Assembly: GCA_018623495.1 (NCBI GenBank)
Contig: JAAZVP010000001.1
Span: 1 to 55,990 of the forward strand
From: Halothiobacillus sp.
GTDB lineage: Bacteria > Pseudomonadota > Gammaproteobacteria > JAAZVP01
Direction: 5' to 3'
DNA: 55,990 nt
Below the pieces are notes generated by a model. It did no database searches. It was not told where the DNA came from and saw only the letters and a program-made list of their open reading frames with translations. This document shows positions 2,741 through 15,018 of the stretch, piece after piece. Numbering within the stretch: the first letter of the stretch is position 1; every line of letters starts with the position of its first letter. The position numbers and the translations under genes were made by a program.

Positions 2741-3184
2741 CTAGACCTTCTCGATCTCGTGGTGGTCCGGCTGGTAGCCGGCGTCGCGGTAGACCTTGAA
2801 GGCCTGGCGGGCGGCGGCGAGATCGGCCTGGTCGGAGCGGTTGAAGATCTCGGCGATGCGCTCGAAACGGCCGTGGAAGTCGGGCAGGGCGCCGGAGAGG
2901 TTGAGGAGCACGCCGTTCTCGCCGGCGGGGGGCGCGTGGTGGCCGATGAGCACCGGGTAGTCGGCGGGATCGGCGTCGGGGTCGCCGGCCAGGGCATGGG
3001 GCACGAAGCTCTCGGCGCGAAAGCGCCACAGCAGGTCGTCCAGTTCCCGCGCCTGCTGCTCCGAGCGCGCGTAGACGAACACCCGGCTGCCGGCGGTGTA
3101 CGCCCGGTTGATGTAGCGGCAGGCGAAGCGGTCGCGGTCGGCGGGGTCGTCGGTGTCGATGATGTAGAAATCGGCTCGGGGCAT
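2741..3184 (-). CDS. holC: DNA polymerase III chi subunit
   Basis: The 147-residue protein matches HolC: FYI at the start, a conserved central segment with the family's LDDLLW and SFVPH motifs, and the C-terminal IFNRSDQADLAAARQAFKVYRDAGY. In the clamp-loader complex chi binds psi and single-stranded DNA-binding protein, tying the replicase to the lagging strand. In many gammaproteobacteria holC follows pepA and precedes valS; here pepA is about 8 kb away on the same strand, and holC is instead followed by mtfA. A good sigma-70 -10 element lies upstream. Confidence 0.94.
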   Translation of the reverse strand: MPRADFYIIDTDDPADRDRFACRYINRAYTAGSRVFVYARSEQQARELDDLLWRFRAESFVPHALAGDPDADPADYPVLIGHHAPPAGENGVLLNLSGALPDFHGRFERIAEIFNRSDQADLAAARQAFKVYRDAGYQPDHHEIEKV

Positions 3185-3244
3185 GGCGTTCCGGCTTCGA
3201 ATCGCCGCACCGCGGGCTCGGGTGCGGGTGGGTGTCGGGCGCCC

Positions 3245-3275
3245 ATTATAGGTCCTGGCGGTGTGACCGGGGCAA
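3245..3275 (-). promoter_or_regulatory. Probable holC promoter
   Basis: On the minus strand a perfect TATAAT lies at 3250-3245, with TTGCCC (3275-3270) 19 bases upstream as a weaker -35 element. Transcription would start about 55 bases before the holC ATG. Confidence 0.5.
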
Positions 3276-3752
3276 TGCGCAACTCCCGGGCGCCTCGAAA
3301 AACGGTCGCGAGCGCGCGAAGGACGAGGCGGATGGAGCGCAGGTCAGGGCACGGCGCTGACGAGGCCGATCCAATCGCTCGGCGAGGAAGCGACAAAAGG
3401 GCAGGACAGCCATTCGGGTCGCCGGCGCTGCCGGCGCCCACGGGGCGAAGGGGCAGGGATGCCCCGAGACGACACCGCCCTTCGCGGTCATTGGTGCGCC
3501 ATCCTTGGCGCGCTGGCGATGGGTGTCCAGCGGATGCCCCGTTCTGCTCCCGGCAGTACGGTCGTGCGCGCAGCCGGTTTTCGAGGTGCCCTTTCGCCCG
3601 CTGGCACGGCTACGGGGAGGGCGGTCGGCAGGGGGGGGCGGGTTTCGCGCGGGAAGGGGGCGTTTTTCGGGCAGCCGGGGCCGATCGACACGTTCCCCGA
3701 CCGGTCCCCAGCCCCTATCATGAGGGGCCTGTCCAACCCGAGACGCGATGCC
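3276..3752. other. Long gene-free stretch between divergent genes
   Basis: About 475 bases separate the holC promoter from the next gene. Open frames exist here but they are long only because the DNA is GC-rich; none shows a ribosome binding site or family resemblance. A short stem (CCCCT/AGGGG, about 3712-3726) with TATCAT inside it lies just before the next gene and might include its -10 element. Nothing else is recognised. Confidence 0.4.
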
Positions 3753-4664
3753 ATGCGCCGATTCCTCCCCTGGCTGGCCCTGCTGGGCCTGGTCGTCCTC
3801 GTCCAGTGGCTCTGGGGCTGGGGGACGGTGCTCGCCCCCTGGGCCACGCTGTCCCCGGGGGCGCTGGCGCTGGCGGTGGTGCTGGTCTTCGCCAGCTACG
3901 CGGTGCGGGCCCTGCGGCTGTTCGACTACTTCCGCGCGGCCATGCGCGGGCGCTTTCTCGCCGCGTTCCGGCTGATGCTGCTGCACAACCTGTTCAACAA
4001 CCTGCTGCCCATGCGCGCCGGCGAGGTGAGTTTCCCGGTGCTCATGGCTCGGGAGTTCCGGGTGGCGGCGGTGCAGTCGATCCCGGCGCTGTTGTGGTTC
4101 CGGCTGCTGGACCTGCACACGGTGCTGGCCCTGGGCGGGGCGGCGGCCCTGGCGCTGGGGGCGCTGCCCGCGTGGCTGTGGGTCGGCTGGCTGGGCTGGA
4201 TGGGCCTGCCGTGGCTGGCCTTTCGCCTGCAGGCCGGGTGGCTGACGCGGCTGGCCCACGCGGGCGACGGCCGGGCGGGGGCGCTCGCGCAGAAGGCGCT
4301 CACCGGCCTGCCGGCGGATGCCCGGGGCTTCTGGCGTTCCTGGGCGTGGACCGGGCTCAACTGGGGGGTGAAGATCGGCGTGTTCGCCTGGGTGCTCCTC
4401 CAGTTCGCGCCGCTGCCGCCGTTGGCCGGGGTGGTGGGTGCCATCGGCGGTGACCTGACCTCGGTGCTGCCCATCCACGCGCCGGGGGGCTTCGGCACCT
4501 TCGAGGCCGGCGTGGCGGCGGGCGTGGCGGCCGCCGGGGTGGTCTCGGAGGCGGTGGTGCCGGCGGCTATCAACCTGCACCTGTTCGTGCTGGGCGCCTC
4601 GATGGCCAGCGGCGGGCTGGCGGTGGCGCTGTCGTCGGTGGCGCGAGCCCGGGGCACGGGTTAG
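3753..4664 (+). CDS. YbhN/AglD-like flippase-type integral membrane protein
   Basis: The start at 3753 (MRRFLPWLALLG) gives a 303-residue polytopic membrane protein; a longer frame upstream has no signal for translation. It resembles the UPF0104 / lysylphosphatidylglycerol synthase TM-domain family, with the characteristic LLHNLFNNLLPMRAGEVSFPVLM segment near residues 75-95 and a glycine-rich PIHAPGGFGTFEAG motif near residue 250. Members are often encoded with GT2 transferases and are proposed to act in moving or handling polyprenyl- or lipid-linked sugars; biochemical proof is limited. A GT2 gene follows after 31 bases and a PAP2 gene after that, which fits lipid-linked sugar metabolism. 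Confidence 0.8.
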   Translation: MRRFLPWLALLGLVVLVQWLWGWGTVLAPWATLSPGALALAVVLVFASYAVRALRLFDYFRAAMRGRFLAAFRLMLLHNLFNNLLPMRAGEVSFPVLMAREFRVAAVQSIPALLWFRLLDLHTVLALGGAAALALGALPAWLWVGWLGWMGLPWLAFRLQAGWLTRLAHAGDGRAGALAQKALTGLPADARGFWRSWAWTGLNWGVKIGVFAWVLLQFAPLPPLAGVVGAIGGDLTSVLPIHAPGGFGTFEAGVAAGVAAAGVVSEAVVPAAINLHLFVLGASMASGGLAVALSSVARARGTG

Positions 4665-4695
4665 CATGTCGGGCTTTCGACAGCCCGATGGTCCC

Positions 4696-5721
4696 ATGTC
4701 CGATTACGCCGAGCAGCCGCATCGCCTGTCGCTGGTGATCCCCATGTTCAACGAGCAGGACAACGTCCTGCCGATGCTGGAGCGGATCCAGGAGGCGCTG
4801 GCCGACTACCCCCACCCCTGGGAGGCGATCCTGGTCAACGACGGCAGCCGTGATGGCACCCAGCGGGCCATGCGCGAGGGGCGCGAGCGCTTCGGCGAGC
4901 ACGTGCGGGTGATCGAGCTGGCCCGCAACTTCGGCCAGACGGCGGCCATGCAGGCGGGGATCGACGCCGCCCGCGGCGACGTGCTGGCCACCCTGGACGG
5001 CGACCTGCAGAACGACCCGGCCGACATTCCCCGGCTGGCGCGCCGCCTGCTGGCCGAGGACCTGGACATGGTGGCCGGCTGGCGCAAGGACCGGAAGGAC
5101 CGGCTGATCATGCGCAAGATCCCCTCGCGCATCGCCAACCGCCTGATCCGCAAGATCACCGGCGTGCAGCTGCACGACTACGGCTGCAGCCTGAAGGTGT
5201 TTCGCACCGAGGTGATCAAGGGTGTGCGCCTCTACGGCGAGATGCACCGCTTCATCCCCGCCTGGATGGCCACCCACACCTCGCCGGACCGCATCGCCGA
5301 GGAGGTGGTCACCCACCACCCGCGCCAGTTCGGCGAGTCCAAGTACGGGATCTCGCGTACCTTCCGGGTGATCATCGACCTGATCATCGTCTTCTTCTTC
5401 ATGCGCTACAACGCCCGGCCCGGGCACTTCTTCGGCATGCTGGGCCTGGGCTTCGGCCTGCTGGGCGGGCTGATCCTGGCCTACCTGCTGGGGGTGAAGA
5501 TCGCCGGCCACGACATCGGCGGCCGGCCGCTCTTGCTGGTGGGGGTGCTGTTCGTGATGCTGGCGGTGCAGATCGCCACCACCGGGGTGCTCTCGGAAAT
5601 GCTCTCGCGGACCTACTTCGAGTCCGGCAACGGGCGTTCCTACCGCGTGCGCAACGCCAGCGAGCTCGAGGTGGAGGACGAGCAGGGCTGGAGCCGACCG
5701 GGCGGGGCCGACGATGGCTAG
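4696..5721 (+). CDS. Polyprenyl-phosphate glycosyltransferase (GT2, ArnC/DPM-like)
   Basis: The start at 4696 (MSDYAEQ) is preferred over an ATG ten codons upstream because it matches the family N-terminus closely before LSLVIPMFNEQDN. The 341-residue protein has a cytoplasmic GT2 domain with the nucleotide-binding VNDGSRDGT motif and the metal-binding DGDLQNDP motif, then two C-terminal membrane helices (FGLLGGLILAYLL and LLLVGVLFVMLAVQI). Such enzymes, like ArnC and GtrB, transfer a sugar from a nucleotide donor to undecaprenyl phosphate. It overlaps the next gene by eight bases. The sugar cannot be deduced from sequence. Confidence 0.88.
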   Translation: MSDYAEQPHRLSLVIPMFNEQDNVLPMLERIQEALADYPHPWEAILVNDGSRDGTQRAMREGRERFGEHVRVIELARNFGQTAAMQAGIDAARGDVLATLDGDLQNDPADIPRLARRLLAEDLDMVAGWRKDRKDRLIMRKIPSRIANRLIRKITGVQLHDYGCSLKVFRTEVIKGVRLYGEMHRFIPAWMATHTSPDRIAEEVVTHHPRQFGESKYGISRTFRVIIDLIIVFFFMRYNARPGHFFGMLGLGFGLLGGLILAYLLGVKIAGHDIGGRPLLLVGVLFVMLAVQIATTGVLSEMLSRTYFESGNGRSYRVRNASELEVEDEQGWSRPGGADDG

Positions 5722-6514
5722 CGTCGATGCCGCCGGGCACGGGGGCGGGCGCCCCGGGGTCGCCATCCCGCGGGTCCACTGGGCCGTGCTGGGCGTGCTC
5801 CTGGGCCTGGCGGGCCTGGCGCTGGTCGGCCCGCTCAACCAGTCGCTGTTCGAGGTGGTGAACGGCTGGGGCATGGTGAGCCCGGGGGCCTGGGCCTCGA
5901 TCACCGTGCTCGGTGACTCGCTGGTGGTCTTCTCGCTGATGCTGCCGGTGGTCCTGGTGCGCCCGGACATCGCCTGGGCCGTGGTGCCCACGGCATTGCT
6001 CGCCACCGTGCTCACCCACGTGCCCAAGAACCTCGTCGAGGCCGCCCGGCCGCTGGCCGAGCTGGGGCCGGAGCAGGTGACGGTGATCGGCCACAGCCTG
6101 CGCCAGTCCGCCTATCCCTCCGGCCACAGCGCCACGGTCTTCGCCACCGCGGCGGTGCTGGCGGTCACCCTCGGGCTGCGCGGCCGGCGGCTGGCGCTGC
6201 TGCTGGGCCTGGGAGCGCTGGTGGCCGTCTCGCGGGTGGTGGTGGGCGCCCACTGGCCCCGGGACATCGCCATGGGCGCGGCCGTCGGCTGGTTCTCGGG
6301 GCTGGCCGGGGCCTGGCTGGCCGCCCGGGCACCCTGGGGCACGGGACGCGTGGCCCGCTGGATCCTGGGCGCGATCTTCCTCGCCTGCACCCTCTACTTG
6401 CCCTTCCACGCCTCCGGCTACCCCGACGCCCGTCCCCTCCAGTGGACGGTCGCCGTCATCGCCCTGGGTTGCTTCTCGCTGCATGCCCGGCGCGCCGTGC
6501 GCTCCACCGGCTGA
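5714..6514 (+). CDS. PAP2-family membrane phosphatase
   Basis: The 266-residue protein has six hydrophobic segments and all three PAP2 signature motifs: Lys105...Arg112-Pro113 (KNLVEAARP), PSGH at 135-138, and Ser173-Arg...His180...Asp184 (SRVVVGAHWPRD). Such enzymes dephosphorylate lipid phosphates; relatives act on undecaprenyl pyrophosphate (PgpB, BacA-type function) or on lipid A (LpxE, LpxF). The start overlaps the end of the GT2 gene by eight bases, so the two are translationally coupled. Its place beside polyprenyl-sugar enzymes suggests carrier-lipid recycling or lipid A phosphate removal to make room for a sugar. Confidence 0.88.
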   Translation: MASVDAAGHGGGRPGVAIPRVHWAVLGVLLGLAGLALVGPLNQSLFEVVNGWGMVSPGAWASITVLGDSLVVFSLMLPVVLVRPDIAWAVVPTALLATVLTHVPKNLVEAARPLAELGPEQVTVIGHSLRQSAYPSGHSATVFATAAVLAVTLGLRGRRLALLLGLGALVAVSRVVVGAHWPRDIAMGAAVGWFSGLAGAWLAARAPWGTGRVARWILGAIFLACTLYLPFHASGYPDARPLQWTVAVIALGCFSLHARRAVRSTG

Positions 6515-6540
6515 GGCCGCGAGCAGCGCCGGGGGCGGTG

Positions 6541-7085
6541 GTTTCCCGGTGGCCGGTTCGCGGCGGGGACGCCGCTCCCACCGGGGGGCGCCCAGCCGTC
6601 GGTGCCGGTGGGAGCGGCCTCCCGGCCGCGAAGGCCGTTCCCGGTCGAGGTGGGCCGGGGGTGGTTTCCCGGTGGCCGGTTCCGCGGAGCGGGGGCGGCC
6701 GGTTCGCGGCGAGGACGCCGCTCCCACGGGGGTGCTCCCAGCCGTCGGTGTCGGTGGGAGCGGCCTCCCGGCCGCGAAGGTCGTTCCCGGTCGAGGTGAG
6801 TTGGGGTGGTTTCCCGGTGGCCGGTTCCGCGGAGCGGGGGCGGCCGGTTCGCGGCGGGGACGCCGCTCCCACGGGGGTGCTCCCAGCCGTCGGTGCCGGT
6901 GGGAGCGGCCTCCCGGCCGCGAAGGCCGTTCCCGGTCGAGGTGGGTTGGGGCGGTGGTTTCCCGGTGGCCGGTTCCGCGGAGCGGGGGCGGCCGGTTCGC
7001 GGCGGGGACGCCGCTCCCACGGGGGTGCGCCCAGCCGTCGGTGCCGGTGGGCCTTGATGGCGGCGGGGGCGCCGCTCCCACGGGG
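6541..7085. repeat. Tandem REP/BIME array (about 3.7 units of ~147 bases)
   Basis: The sequence GTTTCCCGGTGGCCGGTTC recurs at 6541, 6664, 6809 and 6957, giving units of 123, 145 and 148 bases. Each unit holds a forward REP (GGTTCGCGGCGGGGACGCCG followed by CTCCCAC) and an inverted copy (GTGGGAGCGGCCTCCCGGCC followed by GCGAA), a paired arrangement like the BIMEs of enterobacteria. The first unit lacks a ~22-base insert found in the others, and the last one is incomplete. It fills the gap between two convergent genes, where it could end transcription from both sides. Confidence 0.9.
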
Positions 7086-7089
7086 GTGC

Positions 7090-8649
7090 TCAGTCGTCGG
7101 TGTCGGCGAGCCTTGCCAGGACCACGCCGCGGCGGGCATAGAGGACCTCGGTGGGCACGTCCAGGTCGGCCAGGCGGTGGCGGTGGGTGAGAACCACCTC
7201 GCCGGGCTCGGGGCGGCGCTCGAGGAACACCCGGCGGGCGTAGACGCTGGCGCTGGGGGTGCGCATCTTCCACATCACCAGGGTCGTCTCGCCGGGGAGG
7301 TCCCGGGCGGTGAGACCGGCGGCGCGGATCGGTTCCTGCTGGATCTGGGCGATCGTCGGGACCAGCCAGAGGCCCACGGCCAGCGTGCCGGCGAGGCCCA
7401 CGGCGTAGAGGTGGGCGTCCAGCCGCGGGCGCTTCCAGGCCATCAGGGCCACCGTGAAGGCGGCCAGGGCCAGCATGGTCAGCAGGTAGGCGGTGGGGAA
7501 GTACTGGCCGTAGCCCGAGAGCAGGGCGACCACCTCGGGCTCGTCGATGGTGGGCAGGACGGCGCCGACGATCGAGGGCAGGGCCGCGAGCACGGTGAAC
7601 ATCAGCAGGCCCGGCAGCAGGAGCGCCAGCCGCGAGTGCATCTGCTGGACGGCCAGGGCCATGAGGACGAGGGCCCCGGTGAGCCCGTAGTTGAGGTAGT
7701 GGGGCAGCTTGGTGCCGGAAAAGGTGAAGAGCACCAGCACGAAGCCGAACCAGATGAGCGCGAAGCGGCCCAGGTCGCTGCGCCAGGCCGCGGGTACCCG
7801 GGCCACGGCCTTGAACAGCACGGCGGAGAAGGGCAGCACGGCCAGGGGGGCCACCACCAGGTAGTAGAGCCAGCCGCCGCCGTGGCCTTCCATGGAATCG
7901 CCGAAGCGGTCGACGTTGTGCTTGAGGAAGAAGCCGTCGATGAAGTCCTGGCCCTGGGCCAGGTACTGGGCGGTGTACCAGGGGAGGTTGATGGCCAGAA
8001 ACAGCGCGATCCCGCCGGGGTGGAACACGGCCCGCAGCCAGGCCCGCCACTCGCCCTGCGAGGCGTAGAAGAGAAAGCTCACCGCCAGCGGGATGACTAC
8101 CGCCACCGGCCCCTTGGTGAGAAAGCCCAGGCCGATGGCGGCGAAGGCGGCGTAGATCCAGCGCTGCCGGCGCTCGCGCCAGTGGAGGAAGACGGCGAAG
8201 AGGCTGGCGGCGAGAAAGAGGTTGAGCACGGCATCGGCGGTGGCGGCCTTGCCGATGATGCCGATCTGCACGCTGAAGGCGAGCATGATGGCGCCGAGAA
8301 AGCCGGTGCGCTCGTCGGCCACCCGGCGCAGGAAGGCGAAGGTGAGCAAAACCCAGGCGGTGGCCGCCAGCGCCGAGGGCAGGCGCAGGGCGAACTCGTT
8401 GAGACCGAACAGCGTGACCGACGCGGCCTGCAGCCAGTGGATCAGCACCGGCTTGTCGAAGCGCGGCTCGCCGTTGAGCCAGGGCGAGACCAGGTCGCCG
8501 CGCGCCAGCATTTCCCGCGTGGCCTCGGAGAAGGCGCCCTCGTCGAGGTCGAAAAGCGGGATGTTGCCCAGGTTGACGAAAAAGGCGGCGAACACGGCCA
8601 GCCCGAGCAGCAGCGGACGGTAGAGCGGTTGCGGGTGGACCAGGGCCAC
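7090..8649 (-). CDS. ArnT/PMT-type glycosyltransferase (GT83-like)
   Basis: The GTG at 8649 is chosen because GGAGG lies just upstream; further upstream starts lack this. The 519-residue protein has about twelve membrane helices and the acidic first periplasmic loop motif PLFDLDEGAFSEATREML typical of ArnT-like enzymes, followed by FDKPVLIHWLQ. ArnT-type enzymes take a sugar from undecaprenyl phosphate in the periplasm and add it to lipid A or another envelope acceptor. It ends beside the PAP2 gene in convergent orientation and probably uses the carrier-linked sugar made by the GT2 enzyme. The C-terminal ~100 residues form a soluble domain. Substrate and acceptor are unknown. Confidence 0.85.
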   Translation of the reverse strand: MALVHPQPLYRPLLLGLAVFAAFFVNLGNIPLFDLDEGAFSEATREMLARGDLVSPWLNGEPRFDKPVLIHWLQAASVTLFGLNEFALRLPSALAATAWVLLTFAFLRRVADERTGFLGAIMLAFSVQIGIIGKAATADAVLNLFLAASLFAVFLHWRERRQRWIYAAFAAIGLGFLTKGPVAVVIPLAVSFLFYASQGEWRAWLRAVFHPGGIALFLAINLPWYTAQYLAQGQDFIDGFFLKHNVDRFGDSMEGHGGGWLYYLVVAPLAVLPFSAVLFKAVARVPAAWRSDLGRFALIWFGFVLVLFTFSGTKLPHYLNYGLTGALVLMALAVQQMHSRLALLLPGLLMFTVLAALPSIVGAVLPTIDEPEVVALLSGYGQYFPTAYLLTMLALAAFTVALMAWKRPRLDAHLYAVGLAGTLAVGLWLVPTIAQIQQEPIRAAGLTARDLPGETTLVMWKMRTPSASVYARRVFLERRPEPGEVVLTHRHRLADLDVPTEVLYARRGVVLARLADTDD

Positions 8650-8701
8650 GATTCCTCCGGGTACGGGCGACGTCGGCCCGGCGGGCCGCCGGGCGGGTCG
8701 C

Positions 8702-8786
8702 ATTATACGCGCGTTTTCGGGGTCGGTCTCCCGGCCGCGCGGGCGGTTGTCGACGTTGCCGGATCGCCGGTCCGGTGGCGTATCAT
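8702..8786. promoter_or_regulatory. Divergent promoter region
   Basis: On the minus strand a perfect TATAAT (8707-8702) could drive the ArnT-like gene, with no good -35. On the plus strand TTGCCG (8756-8761) and TATCAT (8781-8786), 19 bases apart, could drive the DUF3108 gene. The two would share the 170-base region between divergent genes. Confidence 0.45.
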
Positions 8787-8818
8787 CGCGGCAATGCATT
8801 GAACCCGAGGATGTCTCC

Positions 8819-9544
8819 GTGAGCCAACGGAATGCCGGTTGGGCCCGCCTGGTGGCCGTGATCGTTCTCGCCTGCCTGGCGTTGCCCGCGTCGGCCGAGG
8901 GGCCGCGGCCCTTCGAGGCGGTCTACAAGCTCTCCGCCAAGGGCTTCACCATCGGCGAGGGGCGGGTGACGCTCGCGGTCGACGGGGATGGGTACGCCTA
9001 CCGGAGGACGGTGGAGCCCCGCGGCCTGGTGGCGCTGTTCCGCGACGATCGCATGGAGGAATCCAGCGCGGGTCGGCTGGTGGATGGACGCCCGCGCCCC
9101 GCGCGCTACCATTTCCTGCACGACAAGAAGGGCGAGGAAGACGACCGCGAGGAACGCATGCGCTTCGACGCGGGTGTCGCGACCGGTCGCTACAAGGACA
9201 AGCGCTACCGGCTGGAGCTGCCGGCGCCGCAGACCCAGGACCGCCTCTCCCAGGAGCTCTTGCTGATGGCCGCCGCGGCCGCCGGCGAGCGGTCGCTGGA
9301 CGTGCCCGTGGTGGAGCGGGGCAAGCTCAAGACCTATCGTTTCCGTTTTGATGGCAAGGCCACGGTGAAGGTCCCCGCCGGTACGTTCGAGACCCTGCGC
9401 ATGCGCGTCGACCGGCGCGAGAGCGACCGCAGAACGCGCCTGTGGCTGGCGCCGGCACTGGGTTACATCCCGGTCAAGATCACCCACCAGGAGCCCGGTG
9501 ACGACTTCACGGTGGTCTCGCGGCTGAAATCCATCCAGCGCTGA
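8819..9544 (+). CDS. Secreted DUF3108 protein
   Basis: The GTG at 8819 is chosen because GAGG lies upstream and a normal signal peptide follows (QRNAGWARLVAVIVLACLALPASA, cleaved after ASA near residue 24). The 241-residue product belongs to DUF3108, periplasmic proteins of unknown function predicted to be mostly beta. Recognisable features are the FEAVYKLSAKGFTIGEG start, the central DDREE/TQDRLSQELLLM region and the C-terminal RLWLAPALGYIPVKI. Seven bases separate it from the glycosyltransferase gene downstream, so the pair is probably one operon, which hints at an envelope role. Confidence 0.82.
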   Translation: MSQRNAGWARLVAVIVLACLALPASAEGPRPFEAVYKLSAKGFTIGEGRVTLAVDGDGYAYRRTVEPRGLVALFRDDRMEESSAGRLVDGRPRPARYHFLHDKKGEEDDREERMRFDAGVATGRYKDKRYRLELPAPQTQDRLSQELLLMAAAAAGERSLDVPVVERGKLKTYRFRFDGKATVKVPAGTFETLRMRVDRRESDRRTRLWLAPALGYIPVKITHQEPGDDFTVVSRLKSIQR

Positions 9545-9551
9545 ACCCGCC

Positions 9552-11018
9552 ATGTTCCATCCAGTGACGCGGGACCGACGCTATCTCCTCTGGCTGCTGG
9601 TGATCATCGCCGGCATCCTGCTCTACCGGCTGTGGGTGCTCGAACGCCTGGACGTCACCCTGTACGTGGACGAGGCCTATTACTGGGGCTGGGCCCAGGC
9701 GCCGGCCTGGGGCTATTTCTCCAAGCCGCCCATGATCGCCTGGCTGATCGCCGCTACCACCGCGGTGTTCGGCGACGGGCTGCTGGGGGTCAAGGCCGGG
9801 GCCTTCCTGGTCTACCCGCTGACCACGCTGCTGGTCTTCGCCATCGGCCGCCGGCTGTTCGACGTGCGGGTGGGGTTCGGGTCGGCGGTGGTATTCTTCA
9901 CCCTGCCCGCCGTGTCGCTCTCCGATCTGGTGATTTCCACCGACGTCCTGCTGTTCTTCTTCTGGGCGTTGGCGCTGTGGGCCTTCATCCGCGCGCTGGA
10001 GACCGACGCCTGGCGCCACTGGCTGCTGGGCGGGCTGGCCGGCGGGCTGGGGCTGCTGACCAAGTACACCATGATCCTCTTCCCGCTGGCGGCGTTGCTC
10101 GTGCTGGCGGTCACGCCCGCCTGGCGCAACCGGCTGCGCGAGCCCCGCCTGTACGCCGCCATGGGGCTGGCCCTGCTGGTCTTTTTGCCCAATCTCGCCT
10201 GGAACCTCCGCCACGGCTTCCCCACCTTCCGCCACACCGCCGACATCGCCAACCTCGACAGCGCGGGCTATCACTGGCTCTGGCTGGGCGAGTTCCTGGC
10301 CGCCCAGGCGGCGGTGTTCGGCCCGGTGCTGTTCGCCGTGCTCGCCGGGCTGGCCGTGCGCGGCCCGGCCTGGGCCGATCCCCGCCGGCGGCTGCTGCTG
10401 GTGTTCGCGCTGGTCTTTCTCGGCGTGATCGCCCTCCAGGCACTGCTGGGGGGCGCCAACGCCAACTGGGCGGCACCGGCCTTCGTCTCGGCGAGCGTGC
10501 TGGTGGTCGCCGCACTGGTGGAGCGGCCGCGCTGGCTGGCGGTGGCCCTGGGCGTGAACCTGGCGCTGATGGCCACGCTCTACCACTACACCGATGCCAT
10601 GGATGCCGCCGGGGTGGAGCTCACCGCCGACAACGATCCCTACAAGCGGGCCCGGGGCTGGCAACGGCTGGCCGAGGCCGCCCGCCCGCTGGTGCGCGCC
10701 CATCGCGGCCTGCCGCTCATGGGCGAGGAGCGCGCCCCCCTGGCCCATCTCCAGTACCACCTGCGCGACCTCGACGTGGAGCCGGTGGCCTGGAACCCGC
10801 AGGGGGCGCTGCGCCACCACTACCAGCTGGTCGCCGATGCCGGCGACGTGCTGGCGCCCGGGGCCGACGTGCTCTTTCTCACCACCCGCGAGTCGGTGGC
10901 GGATGTCCGCCGCCGGTTCGACGCCGTGGAGCGGCTGGCGGGCCTGCGGGTTCGCGTGCACGAGGACTGGGTGTACGACTACGCCCTCTACCGGCTGAAG
11001 GGGTTTCGCGGTTATTGA
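9552..11018 (+). CDS. PMT/ArnT-like polytopic glycosyltransferase
   Basis: The 488-residue protein has about ten or more membrane helices and the family's first-loop signature DEAYYWGWAQAPAWGYFSKP, where the acidic pair is the likely catalytic/metal site and the following PPMIAWL is typical of the PMT_2 group. Such enzymes use polyprenyl-phosphate sugars as donors on the periplasmic side. The C-terminal ~130 residues form a soluble domain ending in YDYALYRLKG. It is the second such enzyme within 4 kb, on the opposite strand from the first, and the two are only distantly alike, so they probably act on different sugars or acceptors. Confidence 0.85.
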   Translation: MFHPVTRDRRYLLWLLVIIAGILLYRLWVLERLDVTLYVDEAYYWGWAQAPAWGYFSKPPMIAWLIAATTAVFGDGLLGVKAGAFLVYPLTTLLVFAIGRRLFDVRVGFGSAVVFFTLPAVSLSDLVISTDVLLFFFWALALWAFIRALETDAWRHWLLGGLAGGLGLLTKYTMILFPLAALLVLAVTPAWRNRLREPRLYAAMGLALLVFLPNLAWNLRHGFPTFRHTADIANLDSAGYHWLWLGEFLAAQAAVFGPVLFAVLAGLAVRGPAWADPRRRLLLVFALVFLGVIALQALLGGANANWAAPAFVSASVLVVAALVERPRWLAVALGVNLALMATLYHYTDAMDAAGVELTADNDPYKRARGWQRLAEAARPLVRAHRGLPLMGEERAPLAHLQYHLRDLDVEPVAWNPQGALRHHYQLVADAGDVLAPGADVLFLTTRESVADVRRRFDAVERLAGLRVRVHEDWVYDYALYRLKGFRGY

Positions 11019-11249: not shown

Positions 11250-12746
11250 TCAGCGCAGGCCGGCGCGCTTGAGCAGGTAGTGGGTGAGCATGGGCACGGG
11301 CTTGCCGGTGGCGCCCTTTTCCTTGCCGGTGACCCAGGCGGTGCCGGCGATGTCGATGTGGGCCCAGTCGTAGTCCTGGCAGAAGCGGGCCAGGAAGCAG
11401 CCGGCGGTGATGGTGCCGGCCTCCCGGCCGCCGATGTTGGCCATGTCGGCGAAGTTGGAGTCCAGCTGCTGCTGGTACTCGTCCCACAGCGGCAGTTGCC
11501 AGCCGCGGTCGCCGCCGTGCTCGCCGGCGTCGATCAGGGCGTCCACCAGTTCCTGGTCGTTGCCCATCACGCCGCAGGCCTTGCGACCCAGCGCGATCAG
11601 GCAGGCGCCGGTGAGGGTGGCGGTGTCGATGACCACCTCGGGGTCGAAGCGCCCCGCGTAGGTGAGCGCGTCGCAGAGGATCAGGCGGCCCTCGGCGTCG
11701 GTGTTGAGCACCTCGATGGTCTGGCCGGAGAGCGAGGTGACGATATCGCCCGGCTTGAGCGCCCGGTCGGAGGGCATGTTCTCCACGGTGGGCACCAGTA
11801 CCACCAGGTTGACGGGCAGCGCCATGGCCGCGCAGGCGGCCAGGGTGCCCAGCACGCCGGCGGCCCCGCCCATGTCGTACTTCATCTCGTCCATGCCCGC
11901 GCCGGGCTTGATGGAGATGCCGCCGGAATCGAAGGTCACGCCCTTGCCCACCAGGGCCACGGGCCTTTCGTCGTCGCCGGCGCCGCGGTATTCCAGGGCG
12001 ATCAGGTGGCCCGGCTGGGCGCTGCCCTGGGAGACGGCGAGCAGGGCGCCCATGCCTTCCTTCTCCATGGCGGCCTCGTCGAGGACCTCCACGGACACGG
12101 CGTCGAAGCGCTCGGCGAGCTCGCGGGCCTGCTCGGCAAGGTAGGCCGGCGTGCAGATGTTGCCCGGCAGGTTGCCCAGGTCGCGGGCGAGGTCCATGCC
12201 CTCGACGATGGCCCCGGCCTGGCGGGCGGCCGCCTCCAGGGCGCCGGTGTCGCGCGGTTCGGTGATCGCCAGCGTCAGGCGGTCGACCGGGTGCTCGGGC
12301 GGCTCGGCCTCGCTCTTGAGGCGGTCGAAGCGGTAGTGACGGTCACCGGCGGCGATGCCCGCCAGGCGGATGTTGTCGGCCAGCGAGCAGCCCTCGACCT
12401 CCACCTCGGGCAGGTAGACGACGCACTCGGTCGCGGCGGTGCGGTCGAGCTGGGCGATGGCCTGGCCGCAGGCGGCGATGTAGGCGCTGCGGTCGAATTT
12501 TTCCGGCTTGCCCAGGCCCACCAGCAGGATGCGCTCGGCGGCCACGCCCTCGATGCCGTGCAGCAGCAGCCAGGAGCCGGCGCTGCCGTCGATGTCGCCG
12601 GAGGCGATGATCTTCCCGAGCCGGCCGTCGCCGGCGGCGTCGAGCGCCTCGGCGGCCGGGGTCAGGCCGCCGCCCTGGAAGACGCCGGCGACCAGGCATT
12701 GGGTGCGTTGTTCCCGGGGGTTGCCGCTGGTGACTGTCAGTTCCAT
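11250..12746 (-). CDS. pepA: Leucyl aminopeptidase (M17)
   Basis: The 498-residue protein is a cytosolic M17 aminopeptidase working as a hexamer with two metal ions. The signature NTDAEGRL is at residues 348-355, and the metal and catalytic residues Lys268, Asp273, Lys280 and Asp291 are in place (VGKGVTFDSGG, IKPG, MKYDMGG). E. coli PepA also binds DNA in Xer recombination and carAB control; whether this one does cannot be told. It is divergent from lptF, the usual arrangement in gammaproteobacteria, but holC, usually just downstream, is elsewhere in this window. A GATAAT-type -10 lies at 12783-12778 on the minus strand. Confidence 0.96.
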   Translation of the reverse strand: MELTVTSGNPREQRTQCLVAGVFQGGGLTPAAEALDAAGDGRLGKIIASGDIDGSAGSWLLLHGIEGVAAERILLVGLGKPEKFDRSAYIAACGQAIAQLDRTAATECVVYLPEVEVEGCSLADNIRLAGIAAGDRHYRFDRLKSEAEPPEHPVDRLTLAITEPRDTGALEAAARQAGAIVEGMDLARDLGNLPGNICTPAYLAEQARELAERFDAVSVEVLDEAAMEKEGMGALLAVSQGSAQPGHLIALEYRGAGDDERPVALVGKGVTFDSGGISIKPGAGMDEMKYDMGGAAGVLGTLAACAAMALPVNLVVLVPTVENMPSDRALKPGDIVTSLSGQTIEVLNTDAEGRLILCDALTYAGRFDPEVVIDTATLTGACLIALGRKACGVMGNDQELVDALIDAGEHGGDRGWQLPLWDEYQQQLDSNFADMANIGGREAGTITAGCFLARFCQDYDWAHIDIAGTAWVTGKEKGATGKPVPMLTHYLLKRAGLR

Positions 12747-12868
12747 GCTGTCCTCTCGTTGGTCGACGCGATAGCGGGATTATCCTCGTGCCGCCAAGGC
12801 CGGGGCAAGGCCCGTCCCGTCATGTAGAATCGCGGGGTCATGGCCAATCCCGCAGAGACACGCCGCTG

Positions 12869-13960
12869 ATGCGCACCCTGGACCGCTACCTGGCCCGCGA
12901 GGTCGGCCTCAACTGGCTGGCGGTGGCCGTGGTGCTGATGCTGATCCTGGTGAGCGGCGGGCTGGCCCAGCTGCTGGCCCGCGCCGCCGAGGGCGACTTG
13001 CCCACCGACCTGGTGGGTCGGTTGCTGCTGGTGGACAGCCTGCGGTTCTTCTACTGGATCCTGCCGCTGGCGGCGTTTTTGGGGGTGATCCTGGCCCTCG
13101 GGCGGCTCTACCGCGACAGCGAGATGGCGGTGATGATCGCCAGCGGCGTCTCGCCCGTGGGTCTGCTGCGGGCGGTGATGGGGGTGGCGCTGCCGGTGGC
13201 GGCGCTCTCCGCGCTGCTGGCCTTCTGGCTGGTGCCCGCCGTGGAGGCGGAACGGGCCGCCCTGGAGGCCGATGCCGAGGCCCGCGCCGAGCTGGCCGTG
13301 ATCACCCCGGGACGCTTTCTCTCCGGCCGCGATGGCCGGGCGGTGCTCTACGTGGAGTCGGTGGGGCCGGAGGGGCTGGCCAACGTCTTCATCTACACGC
13401 GCACGGGCGACGGCGAGCCGGCGGTGGAGGTCGCCCGCCAGGGCCGGCTGGTGACCGACCCCGAGTCCGGCCAGCGGATGATCGAGCTGCTCGACGGCCA
13501 CCGCTACCAGGGCCTGCCGGGCGAGACCCGGTTCCGCATCTGGGACTTCGACGCCCACACCGTGGGCATTCCCGGCAGCGAGCCCCCGCCACCGGAGATC
13601 GAGGCCCGCGCCATGACCACGACCGAGCTGCTCGGCACCGGCGGGGATGCCGTGGAGGCCGAGCTCCACTGGCGCATCGCCCAGCCGCTTTCCGTGCTGC
13701 TGCTGGCGCTGCTGGCCGTTCCCCTGAGCCACACCGAGCCGCGCGGCGGCCGGGCCGGGCGGATGACCGCGGCGCTGCTGATCTATCTCACCTATTCCAA
13801 CCTGCTGGCGGCCGGGCGTGCCTGGGTGGAGGATGGCGTGGTGGATGCGTGGACGGGCATGTGGAGCCTGCATCTGGCGCTGCTGGTGCTGGGCGGGTTG
13901 CTGCTCTGGCGCCGCAGCGGCGGGCGCCTGCCGGCGCTGCCCCGGGGGCGGGCGGCATGA
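12869..13960 (+). CDS. lptF: LPS export permease LptF
   Basis: The start at 12869 (MRTLDRYLAREVGLNW) matches the family; the longer frame upstream has no support. The 363-residue protein has the LptF/LptG layout: three N-terminal helices, a periplasmic beta-jellyroll of about 150 residues, and three C-terminal helices. With LptG and the ATPase LptB it pulls LPS out of the inner membrane and passes it to LptC and LptA. A TAGAAT -10 element lies at 12825-12830. It overlaps lptG by four bases (ATGA), so the two partners are made in step. Confidence 0.95.
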   Translation: MRTLDRYLAREVGLNWLAVAVVLMLILVSGGLAQLLARAAEGDLPTDLVGRLLLVDSLRFFYWILPLAAFLGVILALGRLYRDSEMAVMIASGVSPVGLLRAVMGVALPVAALSALLAFWLVPAVEAERAALEADAEARAELAVITPGRFLSGRDGRAVLYVESVGPEGLANVFIYTRTGDGEPAVEVARQGRLVTDPESGQRMIELLDGHRYQGLPGETRFRIWDFDAHTVGIPGSEPPPPEIEARAMTTTELLGTGGDAVEAELHWRIAQPLSVLLLALLAVPLSHTEPRGGRAGRMTAALLIYLTYSNLLAAGRAWVEDGVVDAWTGMWSLHLALLVLGGLLLWRRSGGRLPALPRGRAA

Positions 13961-15018
13961 AGCGGGTGGACCGCTACATTGCCGGCGCGGTGCTCCGCTC
14001 GAGCCTGGCCGTGCTGGGCGTGATGGCCGCCCTGGCGATGTTCTTCACCTTCATCGGCGAGCTGGACAACCTCTCGGGGAACTACGACGCCGCGCGGGCG
14101 GCGCTGTTCGTGCTGCTCTCGCTGCCCAACTACCTCTACGAGTTCTTCCCCGCGCTGGTGCTGGTGGGCACCCTGGTGGGCCTCGGCGGGCTCGCCGCCA
14201 ACAGCGAGCTGACGGTGCTGCGCGCGGCGGGCCTCTCGCGCCTGCGGCTGTTCGGCGCCGTGCTGCTGGGCGGCAGCCTGCTGGTGGGACTGGCGGTGGT
14301 GGTGGGGGAGTACGTGGGGCCGGCCGGCTATCAGCAGGCCAAGTCCATGCGCGCGGCGGCGGAGGGTCGCGAGCTGGCCCACCACGACCGGGCCGGGCTC
14401 TGGGTCCGCGACGGCCGGCGGTTCGTGCGCGTGGGCTGGGTGATGGCCGACCGCCGGCTGCGCGACATCAGCGTGTTCGTCTTCGACGAGTCGCGCGAGC
14501 TCGAGACGATCGTCCACGCCCGCGAGGCGCGCCTGACCGACGCGGGCTGGCGGCTCACCGAGGTGTCCCGCCATGCCGTGGGCGAGGATTCCGTGGCGTC
14601 GCGGCGGGTGGCCGAGGAGACCTGGGAGCGCCTGATCCGCCCGGAACTGTTCGAGATCCTGGTGGTGGACCCGGTGGACATGCCGGCGCGCACGCTGCTC
14701 GACTACATCGGTTACCTGGAGGCCAACGGCCTGGACAGCGAGCGTTACCGGCTGGCCTTCTGGATCAAGGTGCTCACGCCGGTCTCCACCCTGGTGATGC
14801 TGGTGCTGGCGCTGCCCTTCGTTTTCGGCTCCCAGCGCAAGGCCGGCGCCGGCCAGCGGATCTTTGCCGGCATCGTCCTGGGGCTGGCCTTCTGGCTGGC
14901 CGGGCGGGTGCTCAATCACCTGGGCCCGGTCTATCATGTTCCGCCGTTTCTGAGCGCGGCACTGCCGCTGGTGCTTTTCCTGGTCATCGGGCTGCTGGTC
15001 CTGAGGCGGATCCCGTGA
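13957..15018 (+). CDS. lptG: LPS export permease LptG
   Basis: The 353-residue partner of LptF starts at 13957 within the lptF stop codon ([16 protein letters not shown]). It shows the same fold: helices near residues 12-35, 55-80 and 95-120, a periplasmic domain up to about residue 265, and three C-terminal helices. LptF, LptG and two LptB subunits form the inner-membrane LPS extractor. parC follows after 28 bases on the same strand and may be read from the same transcript. Confidence 0.95.

Follow-up and report, generated by a model that had tools for sequence, protein, structure and literature searches.

The gene cluster and its recurrence

A 55,990-nt stretch of DNA from Halothiobacillus sp. 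(contig JAAZVP010000001.1, here called the window) carries at positions 3753–11018 a cluster of six genes resembling those of lipid-linked sugar pathways of the bacterial envelope. Three of these, near-contiguous and all on the forward strand, encode a YbhN-like membrane protein and candidate flippase (3753–4664; PF03706, 79.2 bits against a Pfam cut-off of 33.4), a glycosyltransferase of family GT2 (4666–5721; PF00535) proposed, from its Pfam match and tree placement, to be an RgtE-like polyprenyl-phosphate uronic acid synthase, and a PAP2 phosphatase (5714–6514), LpxE-like by Pfam, motifs and match in the PDB, and a proposed lipid A phosphatase. A single base separates the first two genes, while the second and third overlap by 8 bases. 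An ArnT/RgtF-like transferase of the GT-C type (PMT_2; assigned by Pfam and tree) follows on the reverse strand (7090–8649, in a frame reaching to 8799), the sequence pointing to a likely start at the GTG of position 8649, preceded by GGAGG. Two further forward-strand genes, 7 bases apart, encode an exported DUF3108 protein (8819–9544; Pfam), EipB-like in its AlphaFold2 model and probably a neighbour outside the core, and a second GT-C transferase (9552–11018; PMT_2 at 118 bits, placed by tree, and referred to below as GT39). All six are open frames and the named families exceed their Pfam cut-offs, so that the gene set listed in a preliminary description of this DNA (YbhN-like protein, GT2, PAP2, two ArnT-like or GT-C transferases, DUF3108) is indeed found together.

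This grouping exceeds chance: alpha-, beta- and gammaproteobacteria all show it, and it is the GT2 gene that anchors the recurrent module. A search of 56 genomes, the other 55 drawn from as many families of the same class, revealed a GT2 match at 48–70% identity in seven other genomes. An alignment of seven GT2s was then scanned against named genomes, giving at least 593 matching stretches, 590 of which encode a relative; the best 80 were kept, which together with the window's own locus and the seven found before gives 88 GT2 loci. Partner genes were counted up to 7 kb from the GT2 gene using profiles built from the window proteins, each open reading frame (ORF) being labelled by its best profile; with many loci having short flanks, the counts are lower bounds. 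Window included, a YbhN-like gene lies near the GT2 gene in 62 of the 88 loci, an ArnT-like gene in 42, GT39 in 39, PAP2 in 38 and DUF3108 in 3. YbhN-like, ArnT-like and PAP2 genes occur jointly in 25 loci, ArnT-like and PAP2 genes are paired in 33, and 11 loci have none of the partners close by. Carriers include Dechloromonas, Azoarcus, Hydrogenophilus, Limnohabitans, Thalassolituus, Marinobacterium, Thiocystis, Guyparkeria, Mesorhizobium and Rhizobium, and in one locus of the Competibacteraceae (L057) all six genes share a single strand in the order DUF3108, ArnT-like, PAP2, YbhN, GT2, GT39. A literature search, most subscription journals being outside its reach, returned no paper describing this module.

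The GT2 enzyme and its putative sugar donor

The GT2 protein, earlier described as ArnC-like, matches the ArnC model below cut-off (180 bits against 529), and its phylogeny groups it with rhizobial RgtE-like enzymes rather than with ArnC. Its identity is 58–59% to the GT2s of Rhizobium loci and about 31% to those of arn clusters. In a FastTree phylogeny of 123 sequences (a few genes entering twice through overlapping loci), the 17 Rhizobium-group GT2s form one clade within a group of 36 that also holds gammaproteobacterial module GT2s (support 0.987), and the window GT2 belongs to a neighbouring group of 16 (support 0.908). The two unite as a group of 52 (support 0.717), outside which fall the GT2s of both outgroups, arn-like clusters of genomes G055 and G004 in which ArnA-like, GT2 and ArnT-like matches occur together. 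RgtE of R. leguminosarum is RL1470, a protein of 338 residues listed as a bactoprenyl-phosphate galacturonic acid (GalA) transferase (PMC7795004; PMC7663294). The Rhizobium GT2 of locus L078, also 338 residues long and surrounded by three GT-C genes, is by length and setting most likely RgtE. Residues 194–195 are His-Arg in all 88 module GT2s compared and Ala/Ser-Thr in the two arn-cluster GT2s, which suggests that this pair may contact the carboxylate of the sugar.

The GT2 and ArnT-like proteins do match the ArnC and ArnT models, both far below cut-off (133 bits against 567 in the case of ArnT), which could speak for an abbreviated aminoarabinose route with its remaining genes at other sites. 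However, in the window's own genome (2.46 Mb in 110 contigs, 98.97% complete) model searches with curated cut-offs found no ArnA, ArnB or ArnT over cut-off and no ArnD match, ArnE/F not being searched by model. The absence of arnA, arnB and arnD reported for the window thus extends to the whole genome, and the Arn pathway, rejected as far as the models reach, is highly improbable. An amino-sugar route was rejected as well, since a search of the same genome for the YdjC deacetylase family (PF04794) found no match, whereas an E. coli control matched.

A gene for a putative UDP-glucuronic acid (UDP-GlcA) 4-epimerase, named by its family, lies at most 3.8 kb from the GT2 gene in seven loci (L047, L054, L061, L067, L075, L084, L114) drawn from alpha-, beta- and gammaproteobacteria; no NCBIfam model exceeded its cut-off for these epimerases. 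The first clustering had given an epimerase cluster in 15 loci, from which these seven were kept at ≥39.5% identity to a UDP-GlcA 4-epimerase query, L073 (33.5%) and weaker members being dropped. UDP-glucose dehydrogenase (Ugd) is found in two of the 88 loci, adjoining the GT2 gene in L033 and 4 kb off in L075. Seven epimerase-linked loci are far above chance, because a Poisson model predicts about 0.45 matches per single-copy gene, on the assumption of 3.5 Mb genomes and of independent loci, which related genomes do not provide. Both enzymes have relatives in the Halothiobacillus genome itself, namely Ugd on contig C29 of G000 (67% identical to the Ugd beside the L033 GT2) and an epimerase-like protein on contig C31 (56% identical to the L047 epimerase), and by this similarity a supply of UDP-GalA would appear to be present. 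On C31 a TviB-like nucleotide-sugar dehydrogenase gene and the epimerase gene lie side by side (7067–9523, locus L154) near the contig end, and the pair is possibly part of a separate surface-glycan locus.

The loaded sugar is likely to be a uronic acid, with galacturonic acid as first choice on the strength of these gene relationships. It is rather unlikely that the same machinery serves the same acceptor with another sugar, such as mannose, glucose or an N-acetylhexosamine. GT2 specificity is unreadable from sequence, most GT2 loci have no epimerase close by, and the lipid A of R. vannielii carries mannose at 4' besides GalA at C-1 (PMC7795004), all of which leave room for such a sugar; yet the rhizobial RgtE-like GT2s are nested inside the module GT2 clade, epimerase and Ugd genes are linked to the GT2 gene, and the YdjC deacetylase for an amino sugar is missing.

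Proposed flipping, transfer and acceptor

The YbhN-like protein matches the PF03706 family model and is predicted to have a membrane fold of two repeats, as in the N-terminal domain of MprF: its AlphaFold2 model (mean predicted local distance difference test score, pLDDT, of 94.3) matched six MprF entries at Z 15.2–17.5, the next entry standing at 5.9. Its gene is near the GT2 gene in all 17 Rhizobium-group loci, and a PF03706-type gene lies by the GT2 gene in annotated plasmids of Azospirillum lipoferum 4B and Sinorhizobium meliloti Ak57. In the former (AZO_p6, 3860–5969; L240) it adjoins an RgtE-like GT2 gene, 43% to that of the window, A. lipoferum being a species reported to have GalA in its lipid A. 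The accessible portions of PMC5644692, PMC7663294 and PMC7795004 describe the GalA pathway without a flippase, and the literature search, with the reach given above, found no polyprenyl-phosphate-GalA flippase described. No other flippase family occurs among the 25 commonest neighbour families of the sampled module loci. The chances that the YbhN-like protein is the flippase of the lipid-linked sugar are put at somewhat better than even, and the flipping of polyprenyl-phosphate-GalA fits the predicted model as its candidate role. Less likely, though a serious contender, is a protein that moves another lipid (e.g., a glycosylated phosphatidylglycerol), or a sugar lipid that crosses by another carrier; the predicted fold is shared with MprF, a flippase of lysyl-phosphatidylglycerol. 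In addition, GpgF of the same family is a predicted, unproven flippase of glucosaminyl-phosphatidylglycerol (GlcN-PG; PMC12713373), and 26 of the 88 GT2 loci have no YbhN gene close by. Against this stand the association in the remaining 62 and throughout the Rhizobium group, its repetition in the Azospirillum and Sinorhizobium plasmids, and the lack of an alternative flippase among the common neighbours.

For the PAP2 phosphatase the best PDB match is Aquifex LpxE (6ebu, E 1.2e-8), followed by PgpB (E 6.7e-7), and the motifs KX6RP, PSGH and RX5HX3D are intact and invariant, or nearly so, across 19 aligned sequences; the published PAP2/LpxE consensus is KX6RP, PSGH, SRX5HX3D (PMC6581854). According to the same source LpxE also dephosphorylates undecaprenyl pyrophosphate, and GalA replaces both phosphates in Aquifex lipid A, while the available part of PMC3557214 names LpxE and LpxF without any rgt gene. 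As for the transferases, a FastTree phylogeny of 118 GT-C sequences (again with a few genes represented twice through overlapping loci) unites the ArnT-like proteins of the module with Mesorhizobium proteins of the RgtF type in a clade of 60, at support 1.0 but on a short branch (length 0.1), that excludes the ArnT proteins of arn-like clusters. The RgtF type was identified by its length of 547 residues and by the PAP2 gene adjoining it in L122, as described for M. loti rgtF/lpxE. The window GT39 protein belongs to a set of 23 that come almost entirely from module loci, and this set is sister to a group of 25 containing rhizobial GT39s (RgtA/B/C-like), with joint support of 0.999.

The sugar is probably delivered to lipopolysaccharide (LPS), lipid A or the LPS core being the best acceptor. 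ArnT-like and PAP2 genes are paired just as rgtF and lpxE are, and genes of the lptF/lptG/pepA/holC region occur near the GT2 gene in 8 of the 88 loci (leaving the window aside, 7 of 87), spread over alpha-, beta- and gammaproteobacteria, where the Poisson expectation is about 0.45 per single-copy locus. In a scan of neighbouring genes (232 ORFs from 27 chosen loci, of which 112 ORFs from 17 loci were analysed, the longest ORFs, some short ones and the L054 epimerase being left out) the commonest family was heptosyltransferase, with 5 of the 112 ORFs, and otherwise there was little LPS theme. This scarcity favours an acceptor other than lipid A, with O-antigen, proteins exported from the cell or a different envelope lipid being glycosylated by the GT-C enzymes while the PAP2 enzyme recycles undecaprenyl pyrophosphate, as do the many acceptors of PMT_2 enzymes and the activity of LpxE itself on undecaprenyl pyrophosphate (PMC6581854). 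Such an arrangement is nonetheless unlikely given the paired ArnT/RgtF-like and PAP2 genes, the tree placement with RgtF and the linkage to the lptFG region; moreover, a monophosphate carrier is released as undecaprenyl phosphate and therefore needs no pyrophosphatase.

That the cluster encodes a lipid-linked sugar scheme as such is highly probable, and the one outlined in the preliminary description (a sugar loaded, flipped and transferred, and a phosphate cleared by PAP2) gives the most satisfactory account in outline, its sugar, acceptor, positions and flipping step being those we infer here. Specifically, the locus is read, at a probability of roughly 0.55, as an Rgt/LpxE-like uronic-acid pathway for LPS with the YbhN-like protein as flippase. 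At the inner face of the inner membrane, the GT2 enzyme would load a uronic acid, GalA taken from UDP-GalA being the likeliest, onto polyprenyl phosphate, and the YbhN-like protein would flip the resulting lipid across the membrane. In the periplasm the PAP2 enzyme would strip lipid A of a phosphate, probably the one at position 1, and there the ArnT/RgtF-like transferase would then place the uronic acid; the second GT-C enzyme may add the same sugar at another position, either on the inner core or at 4' of lipid A.

Several observations weigh against this pathway. For the ArnT-like protein, identity to ArnT (31%) hardly differs from that to RgtF (30%), because of which its placement with RgtF is held with only moderate confidence, and in the window its gene is on the strand opposite to the other module genes. 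The PAP2 matches to LpxE and PgpB are less than two orders of magnitude apart in E, and the rhizobial GT2s are called RgtE from length and neighbours. On the donor side, an epimerase is close by in only 7 of the 88 loci, and that of the Halothiobacillus genome, adjoining a TviB-like dehydrogenase, may serve another glycan. Genome-wide, the epimerase is present in 42 of 49 module genomes and 28 of 48 others (the L055 genome left out; in the class sample the figures are 7 of 8 and 28 of 48), a co-occurrence too weak to be retained as stand-alone support.

Lipid A bearing a uronic acid instead of a phosphate would have an altered contribution to outer-membrane charge and metal binding, and altered recognition by cationic peptides and immune receptors. 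The module may serve as a genomic marker for uronic-acid lipid A outside the known groups, and it names a candidate for the flippase step. A broader proposition, tentative and put at a little short of even odds, is that YbhN-family proteins beside RgtE-type GT2s are the polyprenyl-phosphate-GalA flippase in alpha-, beta- and gammaproteobacteria, and that the replacement of lipid A phosphate by uronic acid extends widely among environmental beta- and gammaproteobacteria, beyond rhizobia, Caulobacter and Aquifex.

Neighbouring features and comparison with known systems

The DUF3108 protein, earlier listed with the cluster, is rejected as a core part, its gene being near the GT2 gene in only 3 of 88 loci and having a PurN-like neighbour in 25 of 30 loci (L195–L223). 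It matches in 53 of 67 genomes (51 over cut-off), and is best seen as a guest in the cluster because it is widespread and usually accompanies the PurN-like gene. Its AlphaFold2 model (mean pLDDT 92.4) resembles the beta-spiral fold of Brucella EipB (DUF1849; 6ntr, Z 17.5, root-mean-square deviation 3.3 over 207 residues, Foldseek E 8.4e-8), ahead of YmcC-like (3fzx, Z 10.4) and LolA-like folds; the DUF3108 fold has been called YmcC-like (PMC4364669). Sharing this predicted fold with EipB, and differing from it in sequence (12% identity), Pfam family and genome setting, DUF3108 may possibly be its gamma- and betaproteobacterial counterpart.

The cluster is flanked by a holC side (2741–3753), where a Pfam scan identified holC and an M90 peptidase gene, and by a pepA-lptF-lptG side (11250–15018), the downstream genes being presumably pepA, lptF, lptG and a parC-like gene. 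Module genes adjoin the same region in L041 and L050, and it may be a shared insertion point. Between the PAP2 and ArnT-like genes lie four 145-base direct repeats (6512–7095), built from GTGGGAGCGGCCTCCCGGCCGCGAA-like units in inverted pairs (the window has 12 matches against an expected 0.06), with single copies near 911, 1935, 18357 and 18411; we take these to resemble repetitive extragenic palindromic (REP) or bacterial interspersed mosaic (BIME) elements.

With the Arn pathway for 4-amino-4-deoxy-L-arabinose (L-Ara4N) the module shares the combination of a GT2 (ArnC) and a GT-C transferase (ArnT) and the polyprenyl phosphate carrier, but it is without ArnA, ArnB and ArnD, and its GT2 and transferase score under the equivalog cut-offs and do not join the arn-cluster clades. 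The Lgm system of Bordetella and the Flm/Nax system of Francisella, which modify lipid A with amino sugars and involve a YdjC-family deacetylase, likewise follow a GT2 and ArnT-like logic without the full Arn set, whereas the Halothiobacillus genome has no such deacetylase. The YbhN-like protein has the PF03706/YbhN family and fold in common with the MprF flippase domain and with GpgF of the gpgSDF operon; unlike these, it stands alone next to a polyprenyl-type GT2 and without a synthase domain.

The closest parallel makes the term 'uncharacterised', applied to this pathway in the preliminary description, hard to maintain, each enzyme having a probable counterpart in the RgtE–RgtF–LpxE galacturonic-acid pathway. 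The locus is mostly explained as a beta- and gammaproteobacterial variant of the known Rgt/LpxE uronic-acid pathway with a flippase candidate, and the rhizobial and mesorhizobial counterparts also suggest the sugar. The published rgtE-rgtF-lpxE cluster of Mesorhizobium loti makes 1-GalA lipid A (PMC5644692; PMC7663294), and both this system and that of Rhizobium leguminosarum (RgtE, RgtA/B/C/D and LpxE/LpxF) resemble the module in a GT2 placed in the putative RgtE clade, GT-C enzymes apparently related to RgtF and to RgtA/B/C, a PAP2 phosphatase of proposed LpxE type and genomic donor genes. Unlike the window enzyme, the RgtE of M. loti itself is a shorter GT2 of 244 residues (PMC7795004). RgtF-like and LpxE-like frames beside a short GT2 were also seen in two gammaproteobacterial loci, L014 (G024:C139) and L017 (G041:C13), in the former with an epimerase gene about 300 bases beyond the set, and by gene content these would represent a second, M. 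loti-like version of the pathway. The module differs from its rhizobial relatives in GT-C identities of only about 30%, in a sugar that is so far a prediction, and in its clustering with a YbhN gene in beta- and gammaproteobacteria.

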